Program-made: the position numbers and the translations under genes
Assembly: GCF_005862235.1 (NCBI RefSeq)
Contig: NZ_VCEK01000004.1
Span: 310,001 to 374,000 of the forward strand
Direction of reading: 5' to 3'
DNA length: 64,000 bases
Source of the DNA: Saccharomonospora piscinae
GTDB taxonomy: Bacteria > Actinomycetota > Actinomycetes > Mycobacteriales > Pseudonocardiaceae
Part shown: positions 13,444-21,560 of the stretch, piece after piece
Layout: each line of letters starts with the position of its first letter
How positions within the stretch are numbered: the first letter of the stretch is position 1
The notes under the pieces: model-generated
The model's input: the letters and a program-made list of their open reading frames with translations, nothing else
Database searches by the model: none
What the model was told of the DNA's origin: nothing

Positions 13444-13460
13444 CCGGATCGCCATTGGGA

Positions 13461-13493
13461 GGCCACCGCCACGGCATTCCCGTGGCGGTGGCC
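13461..13493 (+). terminator. Hairpin terminator after the AGCS gene
   Basis: Perfect 14-bp arms GGCCACCGCCACGG (13461-13474) and CCGTGGCGGTGGCC (13480-13493) with a 5-nt loop and no U-tract, as is usual in high-GC actinobacteria. It stands between convergent genes and may act in both directions. Confidence 0.8.
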
Positions 13494-13521
13494 CTCGCGT
13501 ACTCGCGGCGCACGGGGACTC

Positions 13522-15495
13522 TCAGGCGGCCTCGCTCGGCTTGTCCGGTGACGGCGGGTCGCGGTCGATCCAGTGCTTCCCTTCCGCCGCGATTCCCTCA
13601 AGAATGTGCAGAGTGTGCGCGAACCCGGCGGCGTCGAGGTTGATCGCCGACAGGTGCTGCGGTGATTCTCGCGCGTCGAGGTATCCCATCTCCGGATCGG
13701 TGACCTGGATGTCGCGAGGCTCGCCGTTCAGCAGCGTCATCGTCAGGTGGTTGCCGAAACGGCCGTCCGTCGCTACCAATACGGAGGACACCGCATCGAA
13801 GCGGAAGTTGTTGCGTTCGTGGATGGTGGTCGTTGCCTGGCCGAAGTCGAGTTCGGCGCTGATCTCCCGAACGCCGTCTCGCGTGATCAGAAAAAGTCGG
13901 ACGGCGTATCGGGAGTATCGCCACGGGCCGTGAGTGACTCGCGCTCGCTTCGCGTTCTTCGCCGGAGTCAGCAGGAAGGCGTGGGCGATGACGTCGCGCC
14001 AGGCGAGCCGGTAGTGGCGGAGAGCGTCGTCGAGTAGCGCGGTTTTGTCGCAGTCGAGCCAGGTCTCCATCTCGGTCTCGGTGGGACGCGCCCGGTCGAG
14101 TCTGTTCTTCCACCGCCGGTACGCCCGAGAGCGTTCTTCAAGCGCTTCTTCCTGCTCTTTCCCCTCGTCGTTCGTTCGACGACGTTCGGCCACGATGCGA
14201 ACCCACCGGGTCGTCGCGCACAGGACGCTCACGACGAGTGCGAGCGTGGCGACGGTGGCGGACACCGGCGTCACCGCGGCGGTCGCGACGACCACGTAGC
14301 CCGCACTGAGGGCGAGGATGCCGAGGCAGAGCACGCACCACCACTTGGTCGAGCGGCCGACGTCGTACCGCGCGCGGTAGTCCCACAACGTGCCCTCACA
14401 CCACCAGCGCCGCACGTCGCGCACCAGATGCCGGATCAACCACCGGAGCCCGGCCACACCGGTTCTCTGCTCCCGGTAGGTCTCCACGAGCTCATCGCGC
14501 AAGGCCCTGCGAAAGCCCGCAGTCGAGACGAGCCACTCCTCCCGCTGTACGCCGGAAGGGGCGTACTTGTGTGCGTAGTACTCGAACGCGTGGCTTACCT
14601 GGCTGGCGAAGCCGCCGCCTTCGGATGCTCTGCCGACCCCGGGCCGCCACTCGTACAGTCGGTCTTTGGCGCGTCGTCGCAGCGTGTGGTAGTACCACTC
14701 GAAACCGTTCCGAAGGCCGAAGAATCCCGCGACGAACGCCACCGCGTACGACACCACCGGCATCGGGCCTGCGTGGTTGACGACCAGCCACGCGAAATAG
14801 CCTGCCGCAGCGACGGCGATTCCGGACCAGAGGACGGCCGGGAGGCGGTCGCCGGGCAGGGTGCCGCCGACTCTGGTATTCGGGGCGCGAGGCGGCGTCG
14901 GTTTCGGGTGGAAATACACCCACGCGCGCCCCGAGCGATCGTTGCTGGTTCGCTTCCTGCTCGCCTCGTGTCGTAGATCGGCCCAGATCTTGTCCTTGTT
15001 GTTCCCGGTGAGGATCAGGTCGAGATGACGGACGATCACCGTTCGGTGCTGTTGTGGCAGCGCGGTGAGCGCCTCCAACACCACCGCGTGGTCTTCCCTA
15101 GCTCCGGTGTGTAGGTCCAGCAGGTCGAAGACCACCTGCGCCGCTCGCCACCAGTCGTCGGTACTTCCGTACCGGAGCGTCGTTCTGGTCTGCTCGAGCT
15201 GGTCCCGTTCCTGATGTGTGAGGTCGCGTGCGGTTCGCTTGCTCAGCATGGCGAGCGTCCAGTGAAAGCGCACTTCGTTGTTGTCATGACCGTGCGCGAG
15301 AGCATCCCCGATGAGCTCGCGCGCCTTCAACGGTATGCCGTCCGCCAGGGATTGAACACCGACCGCGTACTTCTCACTCGGGGGCGCGGTCGGTGACGTG
15401 ATGTACACGTTCGAGTCGTGTACTTCGTTGGCCTGGATGCCCACCATCGCGCCGTGCTCGGCCGTATTGGTGGTGAACGTGGGGTGCTCGCTCAC
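13522..15495 (-). CDS. Four-TM membrane protein with N-terminal amyloid-like motif; third gene of the Nudix-nucleosidase operon
   Basis: A 657-residue protein of no family I can name. Residues 10-33 carry NTAEHGAMVGIQANEVHDS plus NVYI, matching a motif in the nucleosidase encoded just upstream. Residues 44-180 are helical and TPR-like (VGVQSLADGIPLKARELIGD). Two TM pairs follow (about 219-263 and 385-430), separated by a basic, Trp-rich cytoplasmic stretch. A charged helix (438-470) precedes a C-terminal mixed domain (500-640) with a beta-rich core. GTG 15495 overlaps the nucleosidase stop by 4 nt and GAAGGGA lies upstream; the longer open frame is rejected because it would run through the nucleosidase gene. 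Probable membrane-bound partner or effector of the nucleosidase (inference). Confidence 0.8.
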   Translation of the reverse strand: MSEHPTFTTNTAEHGAMVGIQANEVHDSNVYITSPTAPPSEKYAVGVQSLADGIPLKARELIGDALAHGHDNNEVRFHWTLAMLSKRTARDLTHQERDQLEQTRTTLRYGSTDDWWRAAQVVFDLLDLHTGAREDHAVVLEALTALPQQHRTVIVRHLDLILTGNNKDKIWADLRHEASRKRTSNDRSGRAWVYFHPKPTPPRAPNTRVGGTLPGDRLPAVLWSGIAVAAAGYFAWLVVNHAGPMPVVSYAVAFVAGFFGLRNGFEWYYHTLRRRAKDRLYEWRPGVGRASEGGGFASQVSHAFEYYAHKYAPSGVQREEWLVSTAGFRRALRDELVETYREQRTGVAGLRWLIRHLVRDVRRWWCEGTLWDYRARYDVGRSTKWWCVLCLGILALSAGYVVVATAAVTPVSATVATLALVVSVLCATTRWVRIVAERRRTNDEGKEQEEALEERSRAYRRWKNRLDRARPTETEMETWLDCDKTALLDDALRHYRLAWRDVIAHAFLLTPAKNAKRARVTHGPWRYSRYAVRLFLITRDGVREISAELDFGQATTTIHERNNFRFDAVSSVLVATDGRFGNHLTMTLLNGEPRDIQVTDPEMGYLDARESPQHLSAINLDAAGFAHTLHILEGIAAEGKHWIDRDPPSPDKPSEAA

Positions 15496-16640
15496 GACAG
15501 TCCCTTCGCTGCCGTGATGAGAGCCGCGACCTTCGTGGCCAGATCGGCCAGGTCGGCCGTGAGGCCACCCAGTCGCTTCAGCGCGAGTACGACAGTGCCT
15601 CTGCTCTCTGGCGTGTTCTCTTCGAGTGCCTTCCCTGCGAGATCGAGTTCCGCCCGAGCGGCCTCGTGGGTCTCGGAATCGAGGGCTCCCTTGCTCAAGC
15701 TCTTGTGCAGCTCCTGGCGCAGTGCGGTCAACTCGGTGGAGATCGCGGCAGTGGTCGGCCGGTCCGGCGCGGCACCGACGTAGATCGTGCTCCCGCTCAC
15801 GTGCGCGGCCTGGATGCCCACGGTCGAGGAGGAGGCGGTGTTGTGCACCGTAGTGGATGTCTCCCGTGGTTTCGGGTGCTCGGTTTCCCCCATTGCGACG
15901 TACTCCCCTTCCTTGGTCAGTTCTTCGGCGAGTCGAGTCGCGAACGCCGCCGCGTTCTCCGCTGCCCTGGGTTGCCAGGTCCCGTCGTGCGTGGTGGTCT
16001 TGGTCCCGTCCGCCCGGTCGCTGATTCCCCGGACGATCGCTATCGGCGACCCGCTCAGGTGTCCGGCCTGCGCCACGCCTGCGGCTTCCATTTCGATCGC
16101 CAGCGCGTCGTTGTAGTGCTGCCGGAGCCAGCCGGCTTCTGCCGAGATCGAGGAGTTCTGCACGACCTCTCCCGCGGCGATCGCCCCGAAGTGGACCGAT
16201 GGCGCGGGTGCCTGGGTCGTCCAGTCCCCGACCCGTTTCAGGTGTGAGGCGAGCTGACTGATCGCGTGCGAGATCTCCCAAACCCGTGGTCGTGCCTTGA
16301 GACCGTCGTCCTCGCTGGTGCCTCCGTGATAGGCGTAGACGTGCGTCGCCACCACGACATCGCCGAGCCGGGCGCTCTCCTGAAGCGCACCTGCCACGCC
16401 CACGAAGACGACGGCCAGCGGGGCGAACATCTCGATGGCACGTTCCGCCAGAATGCCCGCGGCGTGATTGCCCTTGCCCGTCAGTCCCAGGGCGATTCGA
16501 GAGTCCGAGTTTTCGAGGGAACCGACCTCGAACCGGGTGCCTCTGGGGTGCCGGTGAACCCGTGTGCCTGTCATGCGCTGCCGGACCGCGCGGTACTCGA
16601 GGTCGAACGCGGTCAGCAGTACCACCACGCCTTGTGTCAT
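15492..16640 (-). CDS. MTA/SAH-type nucleosidase fused to an amyloid-like motif and helical tail
   Basis: A 382-residue protein. Residues 1-245 are a nucleoside phosphorylase/5'-methylthioadenosine-SAH nucleosidase domain with catalytic residues in place: E15 (AFDLEYRAVR), the phosphate/ribose loop FVGVAGALQES (79-89), E183/E185 (IEMEAAGVAQ) and D208 (GISDRAD). Residues 266-289 hold NTASSSTVGIQAAHVSGST plus IYV, shared with the downstream membrane protein. Residues 295-382 form a helical tail. Stand-alone MTAN enzymes are about 230 residues; this added C-terminus is typical of nucleosidase effectors in signalling or conflict systems, not of housekeeping methionine salvage. ATG 16640 overlaps the Nudix stop by 4 nt. 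Substrate unknown. Confidence 0.85.
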   Translation of the reverse strand: MTQGVVVLLTAFDLEYRAVRQRMTGTRVHRHPRGTRFEVGSLENSDSRIALGLTGKGNHAAGILAERAIEMFAPLAVVFVGVAGALQESARLGDVVVATHVYAYHGGTSEDDGLKARPRVWEISHAISQLASHLKRVGDWTTQAPAPSVHFGAIAAGEVVQNSSISAEAGWLRQHYNDALAIEMEAAGVAQAGHLSGSPIAIVRGISDRADGTKTTTHDGTWQPRAAENAAAFATRLAEELTKEGEYVAMGETEHPKPRETSTTVHNTASSSTVGIQAAHVSGSTIYVGAAPDRPTTAAISTELTALRQELHKSLSKGALDSETHEAARAELDLAGKALEENTPESRGTVVLALKRLGGLTADLADLATKVAALITAAKGLS

Positions 16641-17368
16641 CGGTCCCCCTTGTCGGCTGGTGACTTCTCGGGCCGTGCTATGGGTGGGTGGAGCACGGTT
16701 CGCGGTCCCGCACTGAAGAGTCGTGCGGGGCGTCCATTGGTGGTCCTGCGATTCGAGCCCGCCGGGACGATGAACCCGTCCGTTCGCTGGACCTTCCGAT
16801 AGAAGTTCCGAGGATCGAGCCGCAGTCCCCATACCGCTTCGTAGACCCGCTGTAGTTCCGCGATGGTGAATTCGTCCTCGCAGAAGGCGGTGGCCAGAGC
16901 GGAATGTTCCAGCTTGGTACGAGCGCGCTCAACACCGTCGAGAACGATCTGTTGATGGTCGAAAGCCAACGTCAGCCGTCCCGACAGAACGGGCTCCACG
17001 GGTGTCCATGTCGCCGCCGCGGCGTCGGTACCGGCGACCGGCTCGGGGAGTCCTGGCGCGATGGCCAGGTAGGCGATGGACAAGACACGGCCTCGCGGGT
17101 CACGGTCCGGCTTGCCGTAGGCGCCCAGCTGTTCGAGATGCAGCCGGGAAGCCTCGAGATCCGCCTCTTCCTTGAGTTCGCGGGCGGCTGCGACGGCGAT
17201 GTCCTCGCCGTCGTTGTTGAGAAAGCCGCCAGGTAGGGCCGGTGCTCCGCGAAACGGTTCGATGCCTCGCTGCACGAGCAGCACGTGAAGCTGGTTCGAG
17301 CGCAGCGTGAGGATGACGAGATCCACGGCGATCAGGACCGGCGGCGGCGACCACGACTCCTGAGACAT
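16637..17368 (-). CDS. NrtR-like Nudix-winged-helix regulator, first gene of the nucleosidase operon
   Basis: A 243-residue protein with a Nudix fold (1-140) and a C-terminal winged helix (155-225). The segment FTIAELQRVYEAVWGLRLD followed by PRNFYRKVQR is the NrtR-family DNA-binding signature. The Nudix box (47-71, GGFLNNDGEDIAVAAARELK then EEADL) has one extra residue between G and E and lacks the usual final glycine, so it may sense rather than hydrolyse. NrtR proteins bind ADP-ribose or related NAD metabolites and repress NAD-linked genes. ATG 17368 is probably leaderless. It leads a three-gene operon in which every junction is a 4-nt overlap. Confidence 0.85.
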   Translation of the reverse strand: MSQESWSPPPVLIAVDLVILTLRSNQLHVLLVQRGIEPFRGAPALPGGFLNNDGEDIAVAAARELKEEADLEASRLHLEQLGAYGKPDRDPRGRVLSIAYLAIAPGLPEPVAGTDAAAATWTPVEPVLSGRLTLAFDHQQIVLDGVERARTKLEHSALATAFCEDEFTIAELQRVYEAVWGLRLDPRNFYRKVQRTDGFIVPAGSNRRTTNGRPARLFSAGPRTVLHPPIARPEKSPADKGDR

Positions 17369-17403
17369 GAGGCGACCGTAGCTTCCTGTCTGAATGACAG
17401 AAA
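17369..17403 (-). promoter_or_regulatory. Leaderless promoter with palindromic operator for the Nudix-nucleosidase operon
   Basis: On the minus strand TTTCTG (-35), a 17-nt spacer and TACGGT (-10, 17380-17375) precede ATG 17368 by 6 nt. The -35 and spacer lie in the inverted repeat TTCCTGTC-TGAAT-GACAGAAA (17383-17403; 8-bp arms, one mismatch). A palindrome over the -35 of an operon led by an NrtR-like protein is what autorepression would look like. It is the only such palindrome seen in this gap; the remaining bases up to 17600 hold only the RBS of the next gene. Confidence 0.6.
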
Positions 17404-17600
17404 GGGGCCATTTCCCGGTGAGTGGCCCGCGAACGGTGGCGGAGTGCGCGAACTGGCCGCGGCGGCCGGCGCCAGGTCGCTGTGCGAATCGCGACTTCTG
17501 TCGGGTTCCGCGCCGGGAGTGCGCGTCGTACAACCGAGTGAGCGCACAGTGGCGCCGGACTCGTCGTCCCGCGCCGTCGGCCACGGCGAGGGGAGCACCG

Positions 17601-18485
17601 GTGAGTGAATCAGGGACGTCGCGGCGCCGGCCGTGGCCGGTCCGAGTCCTGCTGACCATCGCGGTGGTCGTCGCCACGCTCGTCGGGCCCACGGGGGTCG
17701 CGTCGGCGGTGACGGCGACCGTTGGCAACACCGACGGCGACGGGCTCAACGTCCGCAGCGGCCCGACCACCAGTAGTGCGGCGGTCGGCCTGGTGTGGGA
17801 CGGCCGGGTCGTGGACATCTCGTGTCAGGCCCGGGGCGAGACCGTCACCAACACCTACGGATTCAGCAGCGATCTCTGGGACTACGTGCCCGAACTCGGT
17901 GGGTACCTCGCCGACGCCTACATGGCCACCGGGCACGACGATCGCATCCCTGGCGTACCGGACTGCGGGGACTCCGGCGGCAGCGACCTGGTTCCGGTGT
18001 CGCAGTTCCAGGGGCAGCCCAACCAGAGTGAGGACTGCGGTCCCACCAGCGTCGTCACGGCTTTGCTGGCTCTCGGCGTCACGCCGCGGTCGTGGAACGC
18101 CAGCGTTCCGGTGACGGCCATCAACCAGGCCCGGGCCGACATGGGATACGACCCGAGTTGGAACGATCCGAACCAGTTCGGCACCAACGAGGCCGACGTG
18201 CGGCGAGCACTGGCCGCGAACGGCGTGTCCGCACAGGCTTCCTGGAACTTCGACACCGCACTCGCCCATGTGCGCGGAGGCAGGCCGGTCATCATGGCCG
18301 GGAACATGAAGGACCTGCCGTGGTCGGGTGCCAACGTCGCCCACTTCCTCACCGTCACGGGCTACGAGAACGGGCAGTACCTCGTACTCGACCCGGCTTC
18401 CGACACGGTGGTGTACCGCGCGTCGGCCGCGGTGCTCGGCGCGTACTGGGACAACCACCTCGGCCGAGCGGGCGTGCTGTTGTAA
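17601..18485 (+). CDS. Secreted C39-like cysteine peptidase with SH3b domain
   Basis: A 294-residue protein with a basic N-terminus and signal helix (VRVLLTIAVVVATLVGPTGV), an SH3b-type domain (about 36-110, GLNVRSGPTTSSAAVG) and a papain-like C39 peptidase domain (135-290). Catalytic residues: C146 (SEDCGPTS), H248 (VAHFLTVTGY) and D264 (VLDPASD). Likely a cell-wall-associated peptidase or hydrolase. GTG 17601 is chosen because GAGGGGAG lies 5-6 nt upstream and the signal peptide starts soon after; the frame is open further upstream but without a signal. Confidence 0.8.
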   Translation: MSESGTSRRRPWPVRVLLTIAVVVATLVGPTGVASAVTATVGNTDGDGLNVRSGPTTSSAAVGLVWDGRVVDISCQARGETVTNTYGFSSDLWDYVPELGGYLADAYMATGHDDRIPGVPDCGDSGGSDLVPVSQFQGQPNQSEDCGPTSVVTALLALGVTPRSWNASVPVTAINQARADMGYDPSWNDPNQFGTNEADVRRALAANGVSAQASWNFDTALAHVRGGRPVIMAGNMKDLPWSGANVAHFLTVTGYENGQYLVLDPASDTVVYRASAAVLGAYWDNHLGRAGVLL

Positions 18486-18491
18486 CTCGGG

Positions 18492-19658
18492 TCAGGCAGT
18501 GAGTTCCGCGACGGTTCGGTGACTCTTGGGAAACAGGGAGCTAGCCAGAGCCCGATCCAGTCCGGGCACCCGCATGGCTCGGAAGCCCCAGCGTCGGAGT
18601 AAGAGCTTGACCGACGAGGTCGGCAGGAACCACTCGCCCACCCGGTTCCGGGCCGCCTGTTGGACGCCGGTGGCGACCGGGCGCCAACGCTGTTCGTACT
18701 CGGCCAGCCCTTCCGGCACCGAGGACGACGAGTGCAGCCGCTCCGCCAGCACGTAGGCGCCCGCGGTGCCGAGAGACGCGCCTTGGCCCGCGATGAGGGA
18801 GACCGCGTGAGCGGCGTCCCCGATCAGTGTCACCGGCCCGTCGGTCCAGCGCGGCAGGTCGGTCTGGGCCACCTGGTCGTAGTAGATCTGTTCGGGCGGT
18901 GGGCAGAGCGCCAACGCGCGTTCGGCCAACTCGCCCATATCCGCGTACTCGCGGCGCAGGGCGTCGCGAGGGTCGTCAGGCAGTGCCGGGTCCGAGCTGC
19001 GATGTACCGCGAAGACCGCGACCCGGTCGTCACCGAGTCCATAGAAGCCGAGCTGGCGGTTCAGTGTCTCGGTGAGCACGAACCGGCCGCGGACCTGTGC
19101 GAAAACGTCGGGGTCGGTGAAGACGAACGCACCGGTGTGCATGCCGAGATAACGGAAGTAACGGTGTTCGGGGCCGAACACGAGCGAGCGCACGCGGGAG
19201 TGAACCCCGTCGGCACCGACGATCAGATCGGCGTCGATCGTCGTGCCGTCGGAAAGGGCCGCCCGGTGGCCGTCGATGCGGTCGATGGTGGTGCCGTAGC
19301 GGAGTTCGACGGTGTCCGCGACCGACTCCCGGAGCAGGTGTTCCAGCGCGGGGCGCATGATGCTCGCGATCTTGCCGTCGAGCGCCTTGCCGAAGCGGTC
19401 GTAGTCGATGCTGACGGTCGCGCGCCCGTCGCCGTCGATGTAGCGGAACTCGTCGACCTGGCTCGCGTGCTCACGGAGGGCGCCGGAAAGGCCCATTGCG
19501 CTCAGGGCCTCGAATCCGGGGCCGAAGAAGTCGATCATGTAACCCTGGGCGCGGGGGCCGGAGGCGTGATCGACGAGGTGCACCTCCCATCCGTGGTGGT
19601 GCAGGCGGTTGGCCAGCGTGAGACCGGCGATTCCCGCGCCGCAGACGAGTGCCCTCAT
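18492..19658 (-). CDS. FAD-dependent monooxygenase (PHBH/TetX type)
   Basis: A 388-residue flavoprotein monooxygenase. The Rossmann GAGIAGLTLANRLHHHGWEV opens the protein, the DG motif appears as GADGVHSRVR, and the GD motif as LIGDAAHAVSLIAGQGASLG. Group A enzymes use NAD(P)H and O2 to hydroxylate aromatic or polyketide substrates; the highest resemblance is to TetX/RebC-like enzymes that modify xenobiotics. Its start overlaps the TetR stop by 4 nt, so the regulator is co-transcribed and may sense the enzyme's substrate. Confidence 0.88.
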   Translation of the reverse strand: MRALVCGAGIAGLTLANRLHHHGWEVHLVDHASGPRAQGYMIDFFGPGFEALSAMGLSGALREHASQVDEFRYIDGDGRATVSIDYDRFGKALDGKIASIMRPALEHLLRESVADTVELRYGTTIDRIDGHRAALSDGTTIDADLIVGADGVHSRVRSLVFGPEHRYFRYLGMHTGAFVFTDPDVFAQVRGRFVLTETLNRQLGFYGLGDDRVAVFAVHRSSDPALPDDPRDALRREYADMGELAERALALCPPPEQIYYDQVAQTDLPRWTDGPVTLIGDAAHAVSLIAGQGASLGTAGAYVLAERLHSSSSVPEGLAEYEQRWRPVATGVQQAARNRVGEWFLPTSSVKLLLRRWGFRAMRVPGLDRALASSLFPKSHRTVAELTA

Positions 19659-20242
19659 TGCCGTGCTCCGTTCTCTTCGGTGTCCGCCACCTGGCTGAGT
19701 AGTGGCCTGATCCGAGCCGCTGACAGCGTCGGGTCGAGACCTCGGTGCAGGAGTAGGCCGTCGATCACGGCCAGCAGGACCACCGCGACGCCGTCGGGAT
19801 CGGGATGGCCCGCCCGCGCCAGTGTGGTGGCGACAGCGGATCGGAAATCCTTCATGAGTTCCGCGATGCTGTCGTGGAGGACCGCATCACGGGTGGCAGC
19901 GAGGTAGGCCTCGAGAAACAGTCGCGACGCCGGGTCGCTGCCGTCGTACCGGTCGACCTCGGACACGAGGGCGCCGACCGTCGCGGCAGGGTCGGCGGCA
20001 GCCTTGAGGTGCGCCGCGGTCTCGGCGACCACGCGACGCATCTCGTCGAGGGCGGCCTGGCGCAACAGCGCGGCGAGTGAGTCGAAGTGGTAATGCACCA
20101 GGCCCGCCCGGACACCTGCTCGCTCGGCCAGAACCCGGGTGCTCACCGCGTTCCAGCCCAGCTCTCCGACTAGTTCGCGCGCGGCCTGAAGGAGCCGTGC
20201 GCGAACGTCGCGGCCCCGTTCGACGTTCGTCCTACCGTTCAC
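19655..20242 (-). CDS. TetR-family regulator of the FAD monooxygenase
   Basis: A 195-residue TetR protein with an N-terminal HTH (STRVLAERAGVRAGLVHYHF) and a helical ligand domain. GTG 20242 is the start. It precedes the monooxygenase with a 4-nt overlap, and a perfect 16-bp palindrome lies 24 nt upstream, consistent with autoregulation of the two-gene unit. Confidence 0.88.
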   Translation of the reverse strand: MNGRTNVERGRDVRARLLQAARELVGELGWNAVSTRVLAERAGVRAGLVHYHFDSLAALLRQAALDEMRRVVAETAAHLKAAADPAATVGALVSEVDRYDGSDPASRLFLEAYLAATRDAVLHDSIAELMKDFRSAVATTLARAGHPDPDGVAVVLLAVIDGLLLHRGLDPTLSAARIRPLLSQVADTEENGARQ

Positions 20243-20265
20243 GGCACAGTCCTTGGTCGTTCGTC

Positions 20266-20281
20266 TTGGTCATATGACCAA
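20266..20281 (-). promoter_or_regulatory. TetR operator palindrome
   Basis: TTGGTCATATGACCAA is a perfect 16-bp palindrome, with an extra half-site CTTGGTCG about 12 nt nearer the gene. It lies directly upstream of the TetR/monooxygenase pair, where such repressors bind. Confidence 0.7.
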
Positions 20282-20388
20282 TATAGCCGTCGCTACCGCC
20301 AGGGTCGAGGCGAGGGCTGGCGCGCGACCGCTGAGTTGCAGAAGGCTCACGGCACGGTGCGGTGTCCGGGGGCCGTTTCGCTGTGTTG

Positions 20389-20568
20389 TCAGACCGGCGG
20401 GTGGAATCCGGGCCGTCGTCCGGTGCCCTTGCACCAGCGGCACTCGCGGGAGGACACCATCGTCTGCGGCGTCCCGCTGGTGATCGCGAGCTTGGGGTCG
20501 GGGATGCGGCCGTCGCCGTTGCAGGCGTTACACCACACCCCGGTCGGTTCGTCGTGCTTGTCGCTCAT
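20389..20568 (-). CDS. Small zinc-ribbon-like protein with CxxCxGxG motifs
   Basis: A 59-residue protein starting MSDKHDEPTGVWCNACNGDG and containing a second CRWCKGTG. Two CxxCxGxG units resemble a single DnaJ-type zinc centre. Start ATG 20568 is supported by GGGAGG 8 nt upstream. It stands alone on the minus strand. A zinc-binding role is likely; function is unknown. Confidence 0.7.
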   Translation of the reverse strand: MSDKHDEPTGVWCNACNGDGRIPDPKLAITSGTPQTMVSSRECRWCKGTGRRPGFHPPV

Positions 20569-20743
20569 GCCGGACCTCCCACGATCTGACCTGACCCGTC
20601 GCAGGCACGGCAGTCTACGACCGAGAAGGAGGCGTGCCGCCGCTCGCTGCCGCGCACCGGCGTACGGCCGGGTGGTGTTGCGGCGCACGCGTTCACCGGA
20701 GATCAGGCATGGTCCGTTGGACTGTCCTGCTCGTGCAGGTTTG

Positions 20744-20817
20744 TGCCCCCGGCAGGACTCGAACCTGCGACCTAGAGATTAGAAGGCTCTTGCTCTATCC
20801 AGCTGAGCTACGGAGGC
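20744..20817 (-). tRNA. tRNA-Arg (anticodon TCT)
   Basis: A 74-nt cloverleaf on the minus strand. Acceptor GCCTCCG pairs with CGGGGGC (one G-T pair), D-arm AGCTCAGCTGGATAGAGC, anticodon loop CTTCTAA, T-arm with GGTTCGAACC. Discriminator A. CCA is not encoded. Confidence 0.93.
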
Positions 20818-21015
20818 CGGCGACGACCACTTTGATCACGCCACGTAATCCCAGCTTAGTCATCGCTGTCGGTCTGATCGTCCGATACCGCCGATTCGTT
20901 TCACCCCTCACCCGGCCCGGTGACCGAATCTTCGCCCAAGGTAAGCGAAATCGTGATCACCGGGACCGGGCGGGGTGTCCGGGGGCGCGGCGGCGGTCGT
21001 TCCACACCCGCCGGA

Positions 21016-21050
21016 CAGGGGTCACGCGGTCGGGGCGGGCGTGACCCCTG
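21016..21050 (-). terminator. Hairpin downstream of the I36 inhibitor gene
   Basis: Perfect 12-bp arms CAGGGGTCACGC (21016-21027) and GCGTGACCCCTG (21039-21050) with an 11-nt loop. It lies after the inhibitor gene's stop (21135). In the rest of the 20818-21134 gap I see no gene or site. Confidence 0.75.
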
Positions 21051-21134
21051 GGATCGGTACGGTCACGACGCGTTCCCCTGCGAGGTGCTGCCGTACCGGT
21101 CCGGTCCGAGTTCCTCGGCGGCCTGCGGCGGGCG

Positions 21135-21560
21135 TCAGTTCCAGATCTTGACCGCCCGGACCACGTAGGGACTTCGCGGGACGAACGTGCCCGGTCCCGG
21201 GTACGTGCTGAAATCGCCCTCGGTGGCACAGTCACCGTCCTGGTACACGGTCACGTGCCGGTCGAGCAGATTGCCGAAGGCACGGCCCTCGACGCCGTCC
21301 GGAACCTCCCTGCACTGCTCGGGATTGGTGTTACGCAGGTCGAGACGCACCAGGGTGCCGCCGTAGTCCTGTTCGCTCCAGAGACAGAACTCACCCCGCT
21401 CGCATGCGTGCTGCCCCGACGACCGGATTTCGCCGGGCGACGACTCCGCGGCGGTGGCGGCGGTGGCGGCCGTGGGCGCGAGGACGAGCGTGAGCCCGGC
21501 GAGCAGCACTGCGGAACGGAGGCGCGAGCCGAGGCTGTTGCGGTGCGACTGGTGGTTCAT
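21135..21560 (-). CDS. Secreted peptidase inhibitor, family I36 (SMPI-like)
   Basis: A 141-residue protein with a signal peptide (RSAVLLAGLTLVLAPTAATA) and a small beta-rich domain with CERGEFCLWSEQDYGG and paired cysteines, typical of inhibitor family I36, a beta/gamma-crystallin-like fold that blocks metalloproteases. ATG 21560 has GGGAGGA upstream. A longer open frame to 22247 has no signal or domain support. The 21561-21854 gap holds its leader and the divergent MFS promoter; no gene seen. Confidence 0.8.
   Translation of the reverse strand: MNHQSHRNSLGSRLRSAVLLAGLTLVLAPTAATAATAAESSPGEIRSSGQHACERGEFCLWSEQDYGGTLVRLDLRNTNPEQCREVPDGVEGRAFGNLLDRHVTVYQDGDCATEGDFSTYPGPGTFVPRSPYVVRAVKIWN

Follow-up and report, generated by a model that had tools for sequence, protein, structure and literature searches.

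The analysed window is a 64,000-nt stretch of the Saccharomonospora piscinae genome (contig NZ_VCEK01000004.1, positions 310,001 to 374,000), and all coordinates refer to it. On its minus strand lies a three-gene operon, whose genes we call NUDIX, NUC and TM4; they run in one direction with 4-nt overlaps at both junctions, an observation of the initial annotation that we confirmed. NUDIX (16637..17368) encodes an NrtR-like Nudix domain with a winged helix; NUC (15492..16640), the start of which overlaps NUDIX by 4 nt, encodes an MTAN-fold nucleosidase with a motif-bearing linker and a helical tail; and TM4 (13522..15495), which starts with GTG and overlaps NUC by 4 nt, encodes a 657-residue membrane protein. 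Among full-length TM4 genes in named genomes, NUC lies directly upstream in 51/51 and NUDIX is present in 50/51 (gene starts in the relatives were chosen by script). The annotation had expected homologues of the three genes to stay together and to vary in presence between relatives. The first expectation held for the close subfamily, in which 42/42 NUC places (E<1e-100) adjoin a TM4 place as judged by eye from printed coordinates, more distant NUC being found also without TM4; the second held for the genus, in which TM4 is patchy (5/12 Saccharomonospora genomes). TM4 occurred in 86/297 genomes family-wide, and its profile was matched in 2/396 genomes of a phylum sample. Relative to genome G128 the operon stretch is inserted or replaced, a plasmid copy was found, and a TM4 match was absent from phage records. 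PADLOC left the partners unmatched at the system level (NUDIX reached only 0.037 and TM4 had no match), and NUC matched effector-type models only (PN-superfamily, 3.1e-17; PDC-M60C, 9.1e-12). A description of the trio was not found in literature searches of open-licence papers.

NUC comprises a phosphorylase-superfamily domain (residues 6-237; 15930..16625, minus strand), in which E15, E185 and D208 are invariant across 37 aligned sequences, and a C-terminal helical bundle (residues 297-379; 15504..15752, minus strand) that is missing in most distant-subfamily NUC of the alignment; its AF2 model was built with 37 of the sequences fetched from the loci. Tested as an MTAN, NUC has the fold and the catalytic Glu/Glu/Asp and matches MTAN in NCBIfam at 1.7e-29, yet it stays under the curated MTAN cut-offs (103 vs 169 bits for NF004079; 51.9 vs 73.8 bits for TIGR01704). 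It differs in the stretch with which MTAN faces the substrate 5' end, reading KARPR; R117 and P118 do not vary across the 37-sequence alignment. The host genome has another PNP_UDP_1 enzyme, and a housekeeping MTAN reading is disfavoured by this second enzyme and by the sub-cut-off scores.

Downstream of its N-terminal motif, TM4 contains a TPR-like helical domain (about residues 36-195; 14911..15390), two hydrophobic hairpins (14710..14856 and 14188..14355) and a C-terminal PH-like beta domain with a C-terminal helix (about residues 484-638; 13582..14046), all on the minus strand. An AF2 model was built with 41 of the sequences fetched from the loci, and modelling suggests a layout of TPR-like, 4-TM and PH-like parts that is mostly cytosolic by topology. 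Across 41 TM4 members, Pfam (E<=0.1) yielded an NTPase family in none and no single family in more than 2/41, and NCBIfam (E<=0.01) no single family in more than 3/41; Bestrophin and SLATT were considered as candidate families, and assignment to a known family found little support in these matches, which occurred in few members. A PDB profile search with TM4 returned a designed protein as its best hit (E 0.0026), and a first scan of genome contigs with TM4 alone gave zero matches.

A motif of about 25 residues (NTA..S.VGIQA..V..S..Y), which had been overlooked in the initial annotation, is common to the C-terminal linker of NUC and the N-terminus of TM4. On the NUC side this amyloid-signalling-like motif covers residues 262-292 (15765..15857, minus strand), nearly all within the low-confidence linker 250-288, and in the close subfamily a helical bundle follows, which makes the motif C-terminal, not terminal; on the TM4 side it covers residues 8-34 (15394..15474, minus strand). 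In the TM4 model, residues 1-20 have pLDDT <50 and residues 21-30 a mean of 67 with a short strand at 23-26, and this only partial disorder of the motif was counted against the relay reading set out below. Q277 of NUC is invariant in the 37 aligned sequences; in L013, which lies outside that alignment, the core Q is replaced by V in both partners, one example of the oddities that the two proteins of an operon have in common.

The pair of NUC tail and TM4 head scored 55, a value reached by 3/5000 shuffles of the tail region and by 19/1000 shuffles of the whole protein. When 58 of 60 operons were compared (L016 and L062 were dropped), the cognate motif score averaged 54.7 vs 23.4 for shuffled sequences, with 48/58 operons above all 200 of their own shuffles, a flat control region (20.3 vs 20.9) and 0/20000 partner permutations in each of the two subfamilies. 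A further set of operons from other genera, 28 of the 30 paired loci from L167 on (L177, truncated where its contig stops, and L195, whose genus name places it in the home family, were excluded), gave 25/28 beating 200 shuffles and 297/20000 in the partner permutation; the core-dipeptide count drew on 56 pairs with the core recognised in both partners. With body identity controlled, the 33 operons of the close subfamily had a partial r of 0.23, a value reached by 97/2000 permutations, and the 22 operons of the distant subfamily one of 0.49, reached by 1/2000. At NUC identity >=0.85 cognate partners scored no better than non-cognate ones, the cognate partner ranked first in 5/35 close and 8/23 distant operons, and the motif match among close relatives is partly shared descent. 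In the operon's own genome, the motif profile (E<=10) matched at the NUC and TM4 sites only, and a third motif-bearing partner, in the form of an NLR elsewhere in the genome, was not found at this threshold; a DNA pattern for VGIQA had 4 sites in the genome, 2 of which are the NUC and TM4 motifs. Across 120 family genomes, 24 motif-profile matches were obtained in 13 genomes, all in or directly beside NUC/TM4 places as judged by eye from coordinates. Compared with two published BASS3-type (BASS3/BASS3-like) peptides, the motif did not score above shuffles, except in the distant subfamily against archaeal AEB69175.1 (4/300). The RHIM core tetrad, given as (V/I)-Q-(V/I/L/C)-G in PMC9444067, was present in strict form in 0/70 close and 4/45 distant windows, a negative outcome of the RHIM test; the core was not found in five windows (L016 N, L028 T, L041 T, L062 N, L065 T), and a misplaced L021 NUC window entered the RHIM-tetrad/BASS3-peptide and partial-r analyses.

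Relatives of NUC with other partners were examined in a set of 20 NUC loci (L131 and L144 have no NUC by the gene caller; L128 and L140 have a TM4-like gene beside NUC). In L142 the relative is fused to NB-ARC and TPR, each of which exceeds its cut-off, and the linker contains an ASM-like stretch; in L145 it is fused to NACHT, over cut-off; in L141 it occurs with TIR and NACHT, below cut-off; and a Nudix gene adjoins L142 and L143. These NUC-STAND fusions (L141, L142, L143, L145) occur in the same bacterial family and carry the homologous NUC domain as N-terminal effector, but, unlike in the trio, the receptor is covalently fused and NTPase-based. Four other NUC have a different motif plus TM module in common with the next gene, and those of L127, L134-L137 and L139 bear their own hydrophobic helix just after a motif. 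NUC beside TIR-type proteins (L130, L132, L138) had no motif in common with that neighbour, the scores being reached by 220-541/1000 shuffles, and the same held for L137 and its neighbour (724/1000 shuffles); L134 offered no suitable neighbour for this comparison. Since NUC relatives form part of fusion proteins with NB-ARC-TPR or NACHT, NUC is, as judged from sequence, an immune-type effector module, and the fusions lend support to the earlier proposal of a conflict system.

The NUDIX protein matches Pfam NUDIX (3.5e-15) and NrtR_WHD (2.1e-14), both above Pfam cut-offs, and falls below the NCBIfam cut-off for the ADPR-responsive repressor equivalog (104.8 vs 400 bits). Its Nudix box is spaced GX6E, not GX5E, and keeps the three glutamates of REXXEE; among 39 winged-helix-size Nudix sequences counted, 28 had GX6E and 11 the canonical spacing. 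A candidate operator, the dyad CTGTC-ATTCA-GACAG (17386..17400, no strand assigned), precedes the start codon of NUDIX by 17 nt, and the dyad upstream of NUDIX is conserved (the expectation for the dyad count came from mononucleotide shuffles, and a site was counted twice for divergent gene pairs because such pairs share one site). NrtR (PMC4666351) likewise combines a Nudix domain and winged helix with an altered Nudix box, and NUDIX has its dyad near its own gene; unlike NrtR, it is encoded together with a nucleosidase and a membrane protein and is not grouped with NAD genes. Because of the winged helix, the altered Nudix-box spacing and the conserved dyad, the regulatory role first proposed for this protein gains weight, and NUDIX is a probable operon repressor.

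ATP nucleosidase effectors have CBASS, Thoeris, Avs and Detocs as partner systems, and no partner gene of these systems was identified beside NUC. PNP-family effectors of this activity occur in phage defence, according to PMC10197012, and NUC resembles them in its PNP fold and its PADLOC 'Effector PN-superfamily' match. BASS pairs of filamentous bacteria, as described in PMC7889193 and PMC8086366, join a Bell (or CHAT/TIR) effector to an NLR. The trio shares with them adjacent or overlapping genes, a short motif common to adjacent gene products beyond chance and placed at the effector C-terminus and receptor N-terminus, and occurrence in filamentous actinobacteria; unlike them, it has a TPR-like/4-TM/PH-like receptor without a detectable NTPase, so that TM4 is not an NLR of the NB-ARC/NACHT type, and a nucleosidase as effector. 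A fungal arrangement of PNP_UDP effector, PUASM motif and NLR (PMC9815663) likewise has a PF01048 domain followed at the C-terminus by an amyloid motif that matches the partner N-terminus, but the trio is bacterial, its partner is not an NLR and its pattern differs from the PUASM FxGxGxQxxGxGxF. With its short matched, amyloid-like motif, the trio resembles an immune relay that does without the NLR receptor normally present.

That the operon is an NLR-independent, motif-templated immune relay appears to us an evenly balanced proposition. TM4 would be a membrane-anchored receptor or scaffold with TPR-like and PH-like domains, which may sense a trigger such as phage or membrane damage; its N-terminal motif would then take a templating, amyloid-type fold that captures the NUC linker motif, bringing NUC into active clusters at the membrane, the pairing being supported by sequence and the activation conjectural. 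NUC would cut the base off its purine substrate, a nucleoside or nucleotide that is most likely phosphorylated (ATP, for example) and not MTA, and the outcome may be growth stop or death of the infected mycelium compartment. NUDIX, by comparison with the NrtR family, would repress the operon at the dyad next to its own start and release it on a NAD-derived ligand. We counted for the relay the motif match, the BASS/fungal layout, the NUC fusions, the patchiness, the inserted or replaced stretch, the plasmid copy and the dyad, and against it the weak matching among close relatives, the BASS3/RHIM mismatch, the effector-type-only PADLOC matches and the chance that TM4 is the effector. The interpretation given in the initial annotation was partly supported: its idea that the nucleosidase is held near the membrane protein stands in so far as the matched motif supplies a concrete candidate device. 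More tentatively, and with slightly less than even confidence, we suggest an NLR-free bacterial signalling amyloid in which a membrane receptor templates a nucleosidase via a private co-diverging motif; the motif may be a plug letting unrelated receptors serve one effector, because elsewhere this nucleosidase is joined permanently to NB-ARC/NACHT receptors or is paired, by another motif, with partners that include WD40 proteins.

Two other arrangements of the same parts are unlikely, to a similar degree. TM4 may instead be the effector, acting as a pore, with NUC as the upstream signal whose activity or filaments open the TM4 channel via the motif. Alternatively, the motif may be a static dock that keeps a constitutive NUC complex at the membrane with no templated folding or switching, its role perhaps metabolic or stress-related; motif co-variation indicates pairing, not amyloid, and the hydrophobic helix borne by other NUC relatives means that simply being located at the membrane may be the decisive point, whereas the short, Q/N/S/T-rich motif at the ends resembles amyloid pairs, and a housekeeping dock fits poorly with the patchy presence, the NLR fusions of the enzyme and the second PNP_UDP_1 enzyme. 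A conventional enzyme of MTA/SAH salvage, accompanied by an NrtR cofactor-metabolism regulator and an unrelated co-transcribed membrane protein, would account for the MTAN fold, conserved catalytic residues and NCBIfam match, but we regard it as very improbable given the curated cut-offs, the matched motif on NUC and TM4, and the constant company of TM4 in all full-length named loci, when TM4 is absent from most genomes. Chance or low-complexity convergence, which the shortness of the motif and the whole-protein shuffles of the single pair might suggest, is refuted to near certainty by the 58 and 28 operons, in which most pairs exceeded their shuffles and motifs change in step across very different versions.

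Returning to the relay, a 2021 review of amyloid signalling (PMC7889193) left as an open question whether fungi and bacteria possess signalling amyloids in NLR-independent pathways. The operon offers a concrete, widely conserved candidate for one, its pair being kept in 51/51 full-length named loci, and motifs from many genera are at hand for peptide tests. One nucleosidase appears to be served by several receptor kinds, a membrane protein by motif, a WD40 partner by motif and an NLR through fusion, and this would open the plug between receptor and effector to direct testing.

A motif of ~25 residues resembling those of amyloid signalling is carried both by the C-terminal linker of NUC, the MTAN-fold nucleosidase of the minus-strand trio (HNTASSSTVGIQAAHVSGSTIYV), and by the N-terminus of TM4, its 657-residue four-transmembrane partner (TNTAEHGAMVGIQANEVHDSNVYI), the score of this pair being equalled by 3 of 5,000 tail-region shuffles and 19 of 1,000 whole-protein shuffles. 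Of 60 non-redundant operons drawn from a single bacterial family, 58 were used and two dropped; in these 58, NUC tails and TM4 heads from the same operon reached a mean score of 54.7 vs 23.4 after shuffling, with 48 of 58 operons scoring above every one of their 200 shuffles, and the helical tail of NUC, taken as control stretch, displayed no pairing (20.3 vs 20.9). Non-cognate partners scored 42 within the close and 47 within the distant of the two operon subfamilies, and 26 across them; when partners were re-dealt inside each subfamily, the observed sum was reached in 0 of 20,000 permutations, twice. The cognate partner ranked first in 5/35 close and 8/23 distant operons, and held no advantage over another partner at NUC identities of at least 0.85. 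Controlling for overall protein identity, we obtained partial correlations of 0.49 for the distant subfamily (22 operons; 1/2,000 permutations) and only 0.23 for the close one (33 operons; 97/2,000 permutations), the latter value indicating that much of the match among near relatives is shared descent. For operons from other genera, 25 of 28 lay above all shuffles, and the observed sum of this set was reached in 297 of 20,000 partner permutations. Of the 56 pairs whose core was recognised, 44 have the same core dipeptide on both sides (permuted mean 20.4, maximum 34, uncorrected for descent), and single loci change both motifs alike: a one-residue insertion in L006, GMQ in L017 and a Q to V change in L013.

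A motif profile that included both window motifs gave, at E ≤ 10, only two matches in the 4.9-Mb genome of the organism, namely the NUC and TM4 motif sites, and 24 places in 13 of 120 family genomes, all of them by coordinates in or directly beside NUC/TM4 places. As far as tested, the motif is private to this pair, and since the matches in these genomes were so confined, there was no sign there of a third, NLR-type partner.

Of 297 family genomes, 86 contained TM4; in a phylum-wide sample of 396 it was present in two (its own and G542), and within its own genus in 5 of 12 genomes, in line with the variable presence between close strains raised by the initial annotation. Named genomes, which partly overlap the unnamed ones behind the first count, held 56 TM4 loci, five without full-length TM4; one, a partial metagenome-assembly contig, is labelled Acidobacteriota, and the other 55 bear actinobacterial names, largely of genera we take to be mycelial. 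Saccharopolyspora, Amycolatopsis, Lentzea, Streptosporangium, Nonomuraea, Micromonospora and Frankia are among the genera represented. NUC lies directly upstream of all 51 full-length TM4 genes (in L177 it ends at the contig edge), overlapping by 4 nt in 47, and NUDIX, the NrtR-like Nudix/winged-helix protein, is in the locus for 50 of 51, so the suggested actinobacterial co-occurrence of the three genes holds. NUC also adjoins TM4 in 38 of 40 wide loci (L032-L071, including L062 with its truncated NUC), none being found beside it in L039 and L068, and every one of the 42 NUC places matched below E = 1e-100 adjoins a TM4 place (compared by eye). In L062 (7013-7402), NUC is shortened to motif and tail beside a full-length TM4, which may act there alone or with another enzyme. 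L040, L049, L051 and L067 have one NUC followed by two consecutive TM4 genes with differing N-terminal motif versions.

In bacterial amyloid signalling pairs, PMC7889193 places the effector motif on the C-terminal side and the receptor motif N-terminally, in overlapping genes of filamentous hosts, and NUC/TM4 shares these motif positions, gene overlap and hosts. The layout also matches the fungal PNP_UDP/NLR pairs, for which PMC9815663 reports fibrils from one pair of motif peptides, one of them prion-like. Unlike both types, NUC/TM4 is without the defining NLR and has a membrane protein where the receptor would be. Given the lack of an NLR and a motif that is neither a strict RHIM (0/70 close and 4/45 distant windows) nor demonstrably BASS3, filing as a BASS/NLR pair was rejected. 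By analogy, NUC/TM4 would nevertheless work like such a pair with the membrane protein replacing the receptor: templated folding of the motif would activate NUC at the membrane, where it may deplete a nucleotide, probably in defence. The main alternative reverses the roles, with TM4 as a pore and NUC as its trigger, and we consider it unlikely.

Of 14 NUDIX-first operons examined, 13 have, ~30 nt upstream of the NUDIX start, a dyad GTCAnnnTGAC (≤1 mismatch; longer form CTTnnTGTCAnnnTGACAnTAAG; candidate operator at window positions 17386-17400). Many divergent gaps likewise contain it, NUDIX being often divergently oriented in the distant subfamily; overall, 61 of 89 upstream regions matched vs 7 hits predicted by shuffles. 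In the window protein the Nudix box is spaced GX6E, as it is in 28 of 39 winged-helix-size Nudix sequences, in line with the impaired-signature regulators described in PMC4666351; the REXXEE glutamates of the window protein are nevertheless kept. These features fit NUDIX as a putative autoregulated repressor. Near distant-type operons there are additional short Nudix genes (156-198 aa with a canonical box; L033:4345-4824, L034:4600-5145, L049:3249-3845 and others), 9 of 11 with the same dyad ~30 nt upstream (≤1 mismatch), and may form a small shared regulon with the operons.

In the trio-less congener G128, ~1.1 kb separates the left-flank gene from the relative of the gene at window position 21135, behind which further window genes follow in unchanged order; compared with this genome (locus L112), window ~13.44-21.1 kb has therefore been inserted or replaced. 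By eye, 13444-21100 holds the trio, a secreted C39-like gene, an FAD monooxygenase and a TetR regulator. The trio occupies another genomic place in G062 and occurs whole on a Streptomyces plasmid; phage records gave no TM4 match. As a fourth gene, a small hydrophobic-protein gene of one family lies downstream of TM4 on that plasmid (L125:8049-8582), in L080:5987-6610 and in L047:5049-5615; a search of the window gave no such gene.

We examined 20 NUC places at which no TM4 was listed; the gene caller yielded no NUC at two of them, and two others had a TM4-like gene. Fusions join NUC to NB-ARC and TPR in L142:3884-7246 (both over cut-off; linker with an ASM-like stretch), to NACHT in L145:6470-10444 (over cut-off; LRR match below cut-off), to TIR and NACHT matches in L141:6526-8457 (both below cut-off) and, by eye, to a P-loop protein in L143:3555-7265; a Nudix gene adjoins the L142 and L143 fusions. 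In six NUC proteins (L127, L134-L137, L139), a different motif (e.g. GGNxVGDI..GPVTIDQ) precedes a hydrophobic helix, and in L127:6384-8865, L135:6342-9184, L136:6561-9285 and L139:4158-7117 this motif-helix module is common to NUC and the next gene (0-1/1,000 shuffles), a second kind of nucleosidase pair whose L135 partner bears WD40 repeats. A NUC-type nucleosidase stands beside a TIR-like protein in L132:5587-8150, L138:5819-8427 and L130:5482-8033, with no motif common to the two; the neighbours scanned, in L132 and L138, have TIR and Macro over cut-off, and these arrangements are possibly an NAD/ADP-ribose-linked variant. Because its relatives are fused to, or paired with, such varied receptor-type proteins, the NUC enzyme is a movable effector of receptor systems.
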